Shown in pieces: positions 60,353 to 64,000 of a stretch of 64,000 bases of DNA. Under the pieces are notes generated by a model, which was not told the origin of the DNA, ran no database searches, and saw only the letters and a program-made list of their open reading frames with translations. A program made the position numbers and the translations under genes. Location of the stretch: the NCBI GenBank assembly GCA_019358975.1, contig JAHHIL010000015.1:1-64000 (forward strand), given 5' to 3'. Every line of letters starts with the position of its first letter. Position 1 is the stretch's first letter. This DNA comes from Trichocoleus desertorum ATA4-8-CV12 (GTDB taxonomy: Bacteria > Cyanobacteriota > Cyanobacteriia > FACHB-46).

Positions 60353-62629
60353 GTGAGTCTAAAAGATCTAAAACTCCACCATCAATATCGTAGCGATCGC
60401 CATAATTTGCTGCAAGATTTCTACATCCCTTGTCTCCAGCAGGCGATTACTTACGATCGCGCGGTGGGCTTTTTCTCCAGCACTTCTTTAACTTTAGCGG
60501 CTCAAGGATTGACGGCTTTTATCAGCTCTAGCGGCAAAATGCGGCTAATTGCTTCGCCTCAGTTGTCAGTTGAAGATGTCGCAGCGATCGCCCAGGGCTT
60601 GAAGCAACGAGAAGAAGTGATTGTTGAGGTGGTGAATCGTGAGCTAGAGCAGGAATTTGATCAGATTGCTCAAGATCGGCTCGCCTGCCTAGCTTGGCTC
60701 CTCAGCCAAGAGATTTTAGAGATTAAATTGGCTGTTTATCGAGATCTACGCAATCAAGGGGTTTATCACGAAAAGCTGGGTATCTTTAGGGATACAGCAG
60801 GATACGTGGTAGCCTTCAGCGGTTCCGCCAACGAAAGTGAAAGCGCCTACCAGCGAAACTTTGAGTGCCTCGATGTATTTCACTCTTGGCGATCGGGAGA
60901 TGAGGAACGAATTACCGAGAAGCTAGAAAACTTTGAGCAGCTTTGGCAGAACCAAACGCCAGAGTTGGATGTGATTGATTTCCCAGCAGCAGCCAAACGA
61001 GGGCTGTTGAAGCACTGTCCTAAGCAATTTCCCAGGGAGGGGTTAGAAAAGGAGACAGGAGCCAGAAGTCAGGAGTCAGCAGGGAGGGATGGGAAGTGCA
61101 GGGAGATCAGAGATAAGCGGCGAAAGGTAGAGGCACAAGGGATCTCGCCCAATAGAAGCCAAGAGCCAAAAGGAAAATATGAACCGTTGGGAGCTAAGCG
61201 ACAAAAACGAGAGGACAATCCAACTTCTGAATCCTGGCTCCTGACTCCTCACTCCTTACTCCTATCTCCTACCTCAGTTCCAAGTCTCCCTCCCTGGCTC
61301 ACATTACGCCCCTATCAACAACAAGCCATTGATAACTGGTTTGCCAATCAGGGACGAGGCACGCTGAAGATGGCAACTGGCAGCGGCAAAACCATTACCG
61401 CACTAGCGATCGCAGCCGCACTTTTCCAGAAGATTGGACTCCAAGGATTACTGATTGTTTGTCCCTACCGTCATCTAGTGACTCAATGGGCCAGAGAAGC
61501 CCAGAAGTTTGGCCTTGACCCTATTTTGGCGTTTGAAAATGTTCGGAGCTGGCAGGGACAATTATCCACCCAACTTTATAATGTCCGTTCTAGCCATCAA
61601 CCGTTTCTGACAGTGATTACCACGAATGCCACCCTGATTAGTCAGAGTTTTCAATCTCAGTTGCTCTACTTTCCTGACAAGACCCTGATTATCGGAGACG
61701 AAGCCCATAATCTAGGATCTCCTCAGCTAGAAAAGCGCTTGCCACGAAACATTGGGCTACGGCTGGCTCTATCCGCCACCCCAGAGCGTTATTTCGATGA
61801 CGAAGGCACGCGATCGCTGCTGAACTATTTTGGTCCTGTTTTGGAGCCAGAGTTTACCTTAGCCGATGCGATGCGGGTAGGAGCCTTGGTGCGGTACTAC
61901 TACCATCCAATTTTGATTGAACTCACAGATGTAGAAACTAAGCGCTATGCCGAGTTGACTGCCAAAATTGCCAGAGTCTTGTCCTTAGAAGATGACGAAA
62001 CGGATGCTGCGGTAGCGGCGTTATCCATGCAACGGGCCAAACTGATTGGCAATGCCGCGAATAAATTAGTAGCTTTGCGATCGCTGATGTCATCTCGTCT
62101 CCAGACCAGTCATACCCTGTTTTACTGCGGGGATGGTTCGGTGGAAGATGAGCGGACGGCTGATAGCAATCGCCAACTCAACGCCGTGGTCAAACTTCTT
62201 GGCTCAGAATTAGGCTATCGGGTCACTACTTACACTGCTGAAACTTCCCTCGACAAGCGCGAAGATCTACGGCAACAGTTTGAATTGGGAGAGTTACAAG
62301 GCTTGGTGGCGATTCGCTGCCTAGATGAGGGGGTGGACATTCCCGCCATAGAAACTGCTGTCATGCTGGCAAGTAGCAGCAATCCTCGACAATTTATTCA
62401 GCGCCGAGGCCGAGTACTGCGACCCCATCCGAACAAGCAACGCGCCACGTTATTCGACATGATTGTATTACCACCTGACTTGGGGCGAAACACGTTTGAG
62501 GTAGAGCGTAATCTGTTACGGAAGGAATTGAAGCGGTTTTTAGAATTTGCCGACCTAGCCGACAATGCCGCAGAGGCCAGAGTGAAGTTGTTAGCACTGC
62601 AAAGTCAATACGGGCTATTAGATGTTTAG
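60353..62629 (+). CDS. PLD-like domain / DEAH-box helicase, defence-type
   Basis: The 758-residue protein starts at GTG. An N-terminal phospholipase-D-like nuclease domain (about 1-225) has one HxK motif, H139/K141 in VYHEKLGIF, followed by AFSGSANESESA. A repeat-derived, disordered linker (about 228-316) leads to an SF2 helicase (about 318-758): Walker A MATGSGKTITALA, DEAH in IIGDEAHNLGS, LALSATPERYF (motif III) and IQRRGRVLRPHP (motif VI). Proteins with this layout occur in phage-defence and DNA-modification loci. The next genes, on the same strand, support that. The inserted linker makes it longer than usual. Confidence 0.88.
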   Translation: MSLKDLKLHHQYRSDRHNLLQDFYIPCLQQAITYDRAVGFFSSTSLTLAAQGLTAFISSSGKMRLIASPQLSVEDVAAIAQGLKQREEVIVEVVNRELEQEFDQIAQDRLACLAWLLSQEILEIKLAVYRDLRNQGVYHEKLGIFRDTAGYVVAFSGSANESESAYQRNFECLDVFHSWRSGDEERITEKLENFEQLWQNQTPELDVIDFPAAAKRGLLKHCPKQFPREGLEKETGARSQESAGRDGKCREIRDKRRKVEAQGISPNRSQEPKGKYEPLGAKRQKREDNPTSESWLLTPHSLLLSPTSVPSLPPWLTLRPYQQQAIDNWFANQGRGTLKMATGSGKTITALAIAAALFQKIGLQGLLIVCPYRHLVTQWAREAQKFGLDPILAFENVRSWQGQLSTQLYNVRSSHQPFLTVITTNATLISQSFQSQLLYFPDKTLIIGDEAHNLGSPQLEKRLPRNIGLRLALSATPERYFDDEGTRSLLNYFGPVLEPEFTLADAMRVGALVRYYYHPILIELTDVETKRYAELTAKIARVLSLEDDETDAAVAALSMQRAKLIGNAANKLVALRSLMSSRLQTSHTLFYCGDGSVEDERTADSNRQLNAVVKLLGSELGYRVTTYTAETSLDKREDLRQQFELGELQGLVAIRCLDEGVDIPAIETAVMLASSSNPRQFIQRRGRVLRPHPNKQRATLFDMIVLPPDLGRNTFEVERNLLRKELKRFLEFADLADNAAEARVKLLALQSQYGLLDV
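61047..61275. repeat. Dispersed repeat inside the helicase gene
   Basis: GGAGACAGGAGCCAGA (61051-61066) and the inverted sequence CCTGGCTCCTGACTCC (61233-61248) match at 14 of 16 positions. Sequences between and around them are purine-rich, then pyrimidine-rich, with CTCCTnACTCC units. This GGAGTCAGGAGCCAGGA type is a known dispersed repeat style in cyanobacteria. It stays in frame and encodes residues about 232-308. Confidence 0.7.
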
Positions 62630-62658
62630 TCTTACCCCCTACCAACACGAATGCCTGA

Positions 62659-62770
62659 CGACTGAAGTCGCGGCTACAAGAACAAAGACCGCCTTCGCGG
62701 TCTCATTGTTGAAAAGGTGATTTTAGCCTGCGTAGGCAGGCTTGGTTCCAGTAGCCCCAAGCTTTAGCTT
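62659..62770. repeat. Row of small hairpins (dispersed repeat)
   Basis: Four palindromes follow one another: CGACTGAAGTCG (62659-62670), GACCGCCTTCGCGGTC (62687-62702), AGCCTGCGTAGGCAGGCT (62725-62742) and AAGCTTTAGCTT (about 62759-62770). This resembles a composite repeat common in cyanobacterial spacers. It separates the helicase from the small gene and may end or process the transcript. Confidence 0.75.
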
Positions 62771-62865
62771 GCGGCATTTTAACGATTCATGCAGGAGGTT
62801 AAGGTAGCCACCGTAATGACGCTCAGGTATTCGCATTACAATGACTTAATAAAAAGGGTTGATTA

Positions 62866-63078
62866 GTGGGATCTGCCCTTACCAGTTCCCGCGATCGCTC
62901 ACCCATGTCCCCAGCCTTCAGCATGAATGAAGTTCAGAAGCCCATCACCACTGCTCCTAAAGAAGTTCAGCAAATCATTCAAAAAGTTCTAGAACTGGAA
63001 AAAGACAGACTCGATAAAAACGATCGCGGTCATGTCAACGAAGATATTGTAAAAATCATCAAGGAAGCGGTGCAATGA
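62866..63078 (+). CDS. Small protein of a DNA-modification/defence locus
   Basis: The 70-residue protein may start at GTG 62866, or at an internal ATG at 62905 or 62923. The conserved part is probably from EVQKPITTAPKEVQQIIQKV to the end (LELEKDRLDKND, NEDIVKIIKEAVQ), a charged two-helix unit. It resembles the small protein annotated beside dnd-type genes as a DNA-modification-associated small protein. I have not verified that by search. Its stop overlaps the next start (ATGA at 63075), so translation is coupled with the DndD-like ATPase. Confidence 0.65.
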   Translation: MGSALTSSRDRSPMSPAFSMNEVQKPITTAPKEVQQIIQKVLELEKDRLDKNDRGHVNEDIVKIIKEAVQ

Positions 63079-64000
63079 AGCTGACGGCGCTGAGACTCTG
63101 CAACTTTCGCCAGTTTTATGGACAGACTCCAGAAATTTTGCTGGCTAGGGCAGACGATCGCAACGTCACGATGATTCATGGCAACAATGGCTCTGGAAAA
63201 ACAGGATTGCTCAATGCTTTTACCTGGGTGCTGTTTGAACGATTTACCGCCGCCTTTGCCTCACCAGAGCAGTTGGTGAATCAGCGGGCGATCGCAGAGG
63301 CCAAATCGGGCGATCGCGTGGAATGCTGGGTAGAAATTGCCTTTGAGCATGATGGGAAACGCTATCGAGTTAAGCGGCAAATTAATGCTGACAAGCGCAA
63401 AGCTGGAGTGGAAACCAGCAAAAGTGAGCTGTTCTTATTGGTGGCTGGAGATGACGGGCGTTGGTCGTCACTGCCTGCATCGCAACAACCAGAGGATGTA
63501 ATTAGCCGCATCTTGCCAAAGAGCCTGCACCAATATTTCTTCTTTGATGGCGAGCGGATTGAGCAAATTGTCCGCTCCAACAACCGAGCTGAAATTGCTG
63601 AGGCTACGAAAAAGCTGTTAGGCGTAGAAGTCCTCGATCGCGCTATTAAGCACCTGAATAATGCCCGAAAAACTCTGGAGCAAGAACTGGAGAGTATTGG
63701 CGATGCAGAAACAAAAAGCTTGCTAGGGCAAAAGCGGCAAAGATCACAAGAAATTGAGCAGCTAGAAACTCGGCAAGCGGAGATTGAGCAGGAGTTAATT
63801 TACCAGGCGCAACTGAAGCAGGAATACAGCCAACGCTTGCGAGAACTGAGTGAGGTCGCCCAACTCCAACGCCAGCGAGATACTTTAGCCGCTCAACAGC
63901 AGGAAATTCGCGATCGCCTGCAACAAAGCAAAGCCCAACTGAAGCGATCGCTTTCGACTCAAGGCTACACCGTGTTTCTCTCCGACGTAACCGCCCAGTT
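63075..64000 (+). CDS. DndD-like SMC/Rad50 ATPase (partial, runs off the window)
   Basis: The frame is open from ATG 63075 to the window end (308 residues seen). It begins MKLTALRLCNFRQFYG, with Walker A GNNGSGKTGLL (residues 36-46), then SLHQYFFFDGERIEQIVRSN, and from about 190 a long coiled coil (HLNNARKTLEQELESIGDAE, IEQLETRQAEIEQELIYQAQ). This is the layout of DndD/SMC-type ATPases (DndD is about 660 residues). DndD acts with DndC/DndE and IscS in phosphorothioate DNA modification. Related ATPases serve in other defence systems. Its second half, with Walker B, lies outside this window. Coupled to the small gene upstream. Confidence 0.85.
   Translation, partial: MKLTALRLCNFRQFYGQTPEILLARADDRNVTMIHGNNGSGKTGLLNAFTWVLFERFTAAFASPEQLVNQRAIAEAKSGDRVECWVEIAFEHDGKRYRVKRQINADKRKAGVETSKSELFLLVAGDDGRWSSLPASQQPEDVISRILPKSLHQYFFFDGERIEQIVRSNNRAEIAEATKKLLGVEVLDRAIKHLNNARKTLEQELESIGDAETKSLLGQKRQRSQEIEQLETRQAEIEQELIYQAQLKQEYSQRLRELSEVAQLQRQRDTLAAQQQEIRDRLQQSKAQLKRSLSTQGYTVFLSDVTAQ

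Follow-up and report, generated by a model that had tools for sequence, protein, structure and literature searches.

A PbeABCD-type restriction module with an additional Uma2-type nuclease gene at a Dnd-less locus of the cyanobacterium Trichocoleus desertorum

To which defence system do the last three genes of a 64,000-nucleotide stretch of DNA from Trichocoleus desertorum ATA4-8-CV12 (hereafter the window) belong, and which DNA mark, if any, could such a system recognize? A sequence-only reading had described these genes as encoding a helicase with a PLD nuclease domain, a small protein and an ATPase resembling DndD, and had placed them at the edge of a defence locus related to Dnd, the system of phosphorothioate (PT) DNA modification, considering both a PT system and a distinct system. 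The three genes do lie at the positions given there and are co-directional. Since the window (positions 1-64000) opens contig C15 (102,508 bases), contig coordinates are also window coordinates, and the row of genes could be followed past position 64000. The locus is a variant of a known system, that is, PbeABCD with an extra Uma2 gene and without Dnd, and not an unnamed distinct system; it corresponds to the systems described as PbeABCD (PMC6459918) and as CxC ABC-ATPase/DndE (PMC10853773).

The first gene of the operon, pbeA (60353..62629, plus strand, GTG start), encodes a protein of 758 amino acids, in which an N-terminal PLD/HKD nuclease is fused to a C-terminal SF2 helicase (ResIII/Helicase_C), the architecture that characterizes PbeA in PbeABCD and CxC ABC-ATPase/DndE systems. 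The domains PLDc_2, ResIII and Helicase_C were all found. The protein matched TIGR04095 (dnd_restrict_1, "DNA phosphorothioation system restriction enzyme") with 646.6 bits (cut-off 600) and the PbeA model of PADLOC with 813 bits, and the residues of the motifs HEKLG, GS.NES, MATGSGKT and DEAH are invariant across 12 aligned sequences. The segment that links the PLD part to the helicase part (window about 61050-61280) is longer than in the relatives and contains short sequences recurring across the genome; its frame is open.

The resemblance of the ATPase to DndD proved to be partial. The gene, pbeC (63075..65150, plus strand, of which 63075..64000 lie in the window), encodes an ABC ATPase of 691 amino acids with a CxC hook, as expected for PbeC (about 650-690 amino acids). 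The NCBIfam DndD model matched it with 172.5 bits, the sole DndD match in the genome, but this score is below the curated cut-off of 245.85 that a DndD of a canonical DndABCDE system should exceed, and PADLOC gave 1027 bits for PbeC versus 166 for the best DndD model. The CIC hook (C340-I-C342) and the Walker A residues are conserved in 10 aligned sequences, and a C[IV]C hook is present in all 111 distinct PbeC loci of the sample described below. As judged from these comparisons, the ATPase is PbeC, a sister to DndD and not DndD itself. The sub-threshold DndD score and the PADLOC match also ruled out canonical DndD and SbcC/RecN as identities; the grouping with RecN/SbcC, named in the sequence-only reading as its refuter, was not found, and the protein groups with PbeC.

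Between these two genes lies pbeB (62905..63078, plus strand), encoding a small protein of 57 amino acids. Its open reading frame as listed begins at 62866 (62866-63078), and an alignment with 13 relatives puts the start at the ATG at 62905. Its stop overlaps the pbeC start, the two sharing the ATGA at 63075, in agreement with the translational coupling proposed earlier. No match was found among NCBIfam, Pfam or PADLOC models, and the assignment as PbeB, the small protein between PbeA and PbeC, follows only from position and length together with the alignment. A dispersed palindromic repeat (62649..62799, without assigned strand) is located between pbeA and pbeB and disrupts neither gene. Seven more copies that match it well occur elsewhere in the genome, and others in both congeners; it is predicted to fold (z -2.9), and an Rfam search gave no match.

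Past position 64000, the next genes are not unrelated housekeeping genes but a Uma2-type nuclease gene (about 65143 to 65790, plus strand; PF05685, E 2.6e-25) and pbeD (about 65815 to 66264 by alignment, plus strand), the last gene of the operon. Uma2 proteins form a PD-(D/E)XK-like family. The Uma2 gene overlaps the pbeC stop by 8 bp, and its alignment starts at a valine codon near 65143 (GTG by position, taken from the translation). Residues D110, E142 and K155 (numbered on the 228-amino-acid form) are invariant in 14 aligned sequences and are the predicted catalytic residues. PbeD matched TIGR04062, DNA phosphorothioation-associated protein 4, with 151 bits (cut-off 74); a search of its profile against PDB sequences gave no match up to E 1. 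For a PbeD relative of Aphanocapsa (L161), a structure was predicted from 33 sequences with a mean pLDDT of 79.6. The top eight rows of a Foldseek search with this model were DndE (best E 0.13, none at or below 0.001), and in VIA-align 2 DndE reached a Z of 9.4 over 100 residues, the next entry, a relaxosome structure, having 6.3. A DndE fold is thus predicted for the L161 relative, not for the PbeD of the present locus itself, and this agrees with PMC10853773, where PbeB is described as the small protein and PbeD is equated with the DndE cognate. The family matches for PbeA, PbeC and PbeD, together with the fold of the PbeD relative, identify the set as PbeABCD plus Uma2, a content that bears out the earlier placement at the margin of a defence locus related to Dnd. 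None of the five reading frames is interrupted, their conserved motifs are intact, and the same gene order recurs in relatives.

To see this locus in the context of its class, 388 cyanobacterial genomes were searched, with the best four candidates per genome scored. Matches to TIGR04095 of 1e-50 or better occurred in 95 genomes. Keeping PbeA at 480 bits or more, by which 13 of 103 rows were dropped, left 90 places in 90 genomes, about a quarter of the total, and DndC above its cut-off was found in 76 of the 388. Of the 90 genomes with PbeA, 29 have DndC no more than 25 kb away and 38 have it farther off, either elsewhere in the genome or on another contig. In the other 23, among them the present one, it was not found; six of these 23 show a DndC-like match of lower score. 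Intact Pbe genes that lack dndC recur in several families. According to PMC8569181, PT restriction systems are absent in Cyanobacteria, which served there as a basis for proposing an antioxidant origin of PT; Pbe is not mentioned in its text. Since PbeA, of a PT-linked restriction module, occurs in 90 of the 388 genomes, this absence argument needs another look. Many cyanobacteria (L087, L089-L098 and others) have a short TIGR04095 helicase (about 500 amino acids) without PLD, without PbeC nearby and with dndC elsewhere; of 12 fetched loci from genomes with dndC elsewhere, 11 had only a short PbeA and no PbeC around it. We also observed a second DndC-like family (about 400 amino acids, 130-145 bits), exemplified by G083:C92:25519-26523. 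Its genes often lie on the strand opposite to dndC at a distance of a few kb, and in L059 one adjoins a TIGR04096-like gene.

The Uma2 gene could be a chance neighbour of pbeC, and we examined its recurrence in 141 loci, comprising 61 neighbourhood loci and 80 named loci found by PbeC. This sample was picked by PbeA or PbeC and is not random; 60 loci were fetched from the other 89 genomes with PbeA of at least 480 bits or from two divergent ones. Leaving out 18 loci without PbeC of at least 500 bits and removing 12 duplicates gave 111 distinct PbeC loci, 107 of which have at least 700 bases downstream. A Pbe-type Uma2 gene of one subfamily is the next gene after pbeC in 29 of these 107 cyanobacterial loci and overlaps the pbeC stop in 24 of the 29; in 17 of the 24, the overlap measures 8 or 11 bases. 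The genome contains 45 Uma2 matches. In three other genomes, the copy linked to Pbe is the best match of this Uma2 (308 bits in G160, 265 in G093 and 259 in G295). The top-scoring paralog within the present genome reaches 218 bits, and the closer kinship with the Pbe-linked copies counters the explanation by chance. A replacement of the PLD domain by Uma2 is likewise unsupported, because Uma2 is commoner next to pbeC in loci with a long, PLD-bearing PbeA (17 of 32) than in those with a short PbeA (9 of 60). In a Uma2 tree, for which the phmmer step yielded proteins from 17 of the 45 paralogous loci, 12 of them being used after removal of five duplicates, the 23 rows from Pbe loci need two changes, of which supported branches force only one, and the bootstrap is unsettled. 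Uma2 may thus have joined Pbe loci once or twice, the tree not being decisive. Literature searches found no paper pairing Uma2 with phosphorothioation and, among the papers listed, none focused on PbeC in cyanobacteria. The recurrence of Uma2 directly after pbeC, like the presence of PbeA in 90 of the 388 genomes, goes beyond the literature found.

The pbeA-pbeD block is absent from both congeners (G001 and G002), in which both flanks are present. Sequences matching L009:3221-3265 and L009:9314-9375 are 480 bases apart in G001 versus 6,048 here, suggesting that the block was gained here, or lost there, as one unit. In G001, the stretch at the empty site overlaps a gene of methyltransferase fold, which is intact in both congeners. 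Downstream, pbeD is adjoined by a PLD-SNF2-type helicase in two frames on the minus strand (C15:66405-67664 and 67742-69154; L009:9405-12154), followed by ABC-transporter-type open reading frames. In Tolypothrix, an intact relative is encoded by a single gene (about 922 amino acids). Single-gene relatives occur on cyanobacterial plasmids, and the two-frame region (C15:66405-69154) is AT-richer than its surroundings. The Pbe block occupies a variable site, with a tRNA-Phe gene (L009:12605-12677) on its downstream side. This tRNA gene serves as an integration site in the genus: an island in G002 (L115:5652-10819), flanked by a 47-base repeat of it, contains an integrase, a GmrSD-type (GmrSD_N) gene and an HEPN gene, and in G001 the same place has about 40 kb of other cargo including open reading frames resembling type I restriction genes. 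Many Dnd-bearing loci have an HNH gene after pbeD (L057:15850-16809 and relatives; 110 bits against the model of phosphorothioated-DNA-binding restriction endonuclease, cut-off 180), which is absent from the window's locus.

Which modification genes accompany the module? The sequence-only reading saw neither dndC nor dndE in the window, and neither follows on the contig, where Uma2, pbeD and then the opposite-strand helicase come next. The dndC gene of a complete DndCDEA-PbeABCD pair was not found in the genome (99.98% complete), the best TIGR03183 match (21 bits over 40 positions) being an SspD gene, and no second dndD was found. The contig of this weak match (C44) also carries a DndB-like match (78 bits), for which none was found in the congeners, and this coincidence led to an SspABCD cluster (L244:7323-18263) with SspB, SspC, SspD, a GIY-YIG-looking gene (recognized by eye, without a library match), a DGQHR/DndB-like gene and SspA in a row. 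PADLOC scores were 454 (SspA), 404 (SspB, with DUF4007), 1475 (SspC) and 387 bits (SspD), so that all four genes are together on one contig. A TIGR04096 gene (881 bits) is on the other strand of the cluster. The contig, with genes for ParA and ParB, resembles a plasmid. No match to SspE, SspF, SspG or SspH was found in seven further open reading frames of C44, the only contig searched for these. A system without modification genes, as considered in the sequence-only reading, is therefore found at the locus but not genome-wide, and the reading that the genome has no PT genes is rejected on account of the cluster. From its gene content, the cell probably makes PT despite the Dnd-less Pbe locus. 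In the loci of relatives (tblastn, except L244, L016 and L241), SspB or SspC beside Pbe was limited to pieces in L236 and L098. Also in the genome are a single strong Dam-type gene, which has its counterpart in each of the three genomes of the genus, Pbe-bearing or not, and one C5-methylase gene; neither is on the contig of the operon. Note that a Uma2 gene directly adjoins the Dam-type gene on the same strand (G000:C30:42185-43544).

We consider it likely that horizontal transfer brought in a PbeABCD restriction module, of the CxC ABC-ATPase/DndE type, and that a Uma2-type nuclease gene belongs to it as a fifth member, coupled in translation; the function of this module is predicted from sequence. 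In it, the PbeC ATPase and PbeD with its predicted DndE fold would scan DNA for its state of modification, PbeB would keep the complex in check or sense phage, and PbeA, with Uma2 as a second nuclease, would block replication of unmarked invader DNA. As the mark cannot come from DndCDE here, the module should be idle or read another mark, for which an Ssp-made PT would be the first candidate. In the most specific form of this idea, which we regard as rather improbable, a DndCDE-free Pbe would read single-stranded PT made in trans by a plasmid-borne SspABCD without its own restriction partner, and Uma2 would cut; this Pbe-Ssp pairing is a hypothesis from one genome. Several observations weigh against the preferred reading. 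Archaeal PbeABCD without PT was reported to be neither protective nor toxic (PMC6459918), and a Dnd-less copy may accordingly be inert. The Ssp mark is single-stranded CpsCA (PMC10470545) versus the archaeal GpsATC (PMC6459918), and no work showing Pbe reading the Ssp mark was found in the literature. Moreover, 78 of the 107 loci lack Uma2, which indicates that it is not essential to the system.

The inert state just mentioned would be expected if the module had arrived without dndCDE and were now a silent but undecayed passenger with no matching mark in the cell. We hold this to be doubtful, though a serious alternative: besides the archaeal result, the lack of dndC and of a second dndD, the two-frame state of the neighbouring helicase, the repeat inside the operon and the dndC fragments in at least two other dndC-lacking loci (L052 and L056) fit with it, whereas the five open genes with their conserved motifs, the recurrence of intact dndC-less Pbe genes in several families and the 320 of 553 PbeAC without neighbouring dndCD reported by Xiong et al. 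(PMC6459918), too common for mere debris, do not. Base-modifying genes were reported near 155 of these 320 solitary PbeAC (PMC6459918), and the archaeal PT motif is GATC, so that a module recognizing methylated bases rather than PT, for instance those made by Dam at GATC or by the C5-cytosine methylase, can be envisaged with the two methylase genes of this genome. This seems unlikely to us, given that neither gene is on the operon's contig, that the Dam-type gene is in all three genomes with or without Pbe, and that GATC methylation is reported not to have blocked DndFGH restriction (PMC10470545). To a scheme requiring no DNA mark, in which phage infection opens the PbeB gate and the PbeA and Uma2 nucleases act on self DNA as an abortive system, we give little credence: the gate role of PbeB has been proposed (PMC10853773) and a second nuclease gene is in place, but a PT-modified virus is described as escaping the archaeal system, whose block requires PT on host DNA (PMC6459918). 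Because the preferred restriction module resides in a Dnd-less and Ssp-bearing genome, what a solitary Pbe reads becomes directly testable.

The closest characterized counterpart is DndCDEA-PbeABCD of haloarchaea (Xiong et al. 2019; PMC6459918), which like the present set has PbeA with PLD, ResIII and helicase domains, a small PbeB (66 amino acids), the AAA-ATPase PbeC and PbeD (152 amino acids) in the same order. That module is reported to give about 10^4-fold protection against virus; all four pbe genes are needed for full protection, pbeB, pbeC and pbeD being required and a pbeA deletion leaving low resistance. In contrast to it, the present locus has no dndCDE in cis and has Uma2 between pbeC and pbeD, and SspABCD is elsewhere in the genome. 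The latter consists of PT-modification genes and is a possible source of the mark, although with a different enzyme set (SspB, SspC and SspD) and unlinked to the window's contig. A similar row is labelled in RefSeq on plasmid pPg_01 of Pseudanabaena galeata CCNP1313 (NZ_CP112875.1): PT restriction enzyme, small protein, AAA ATPase, Uma2 and PT-associated protein 4, in this order, except that Uma2 is a 76-amino-acid fragment and that a nucleotidyltransferase gene and two hypothetical genes precede pbeD. These neighbours have thus already been annotated, with no text found that discusses them. The CxC ABC-ATPase/DndE systems (PMC10853773) share the CxC hook, the small protein, the HKD-SF2 nuclease and the DndE cognate with the present set and are said to occur also independently of DndD-centred genes; Uma2, present here, is unnamed in the main text of that account. 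In that account, the HKD nuclease is argued to act in part by cleavage, contrary to PMC6459918, and the recurring Uma2 provides a named second nuclease for a system with a disputed cutting step.

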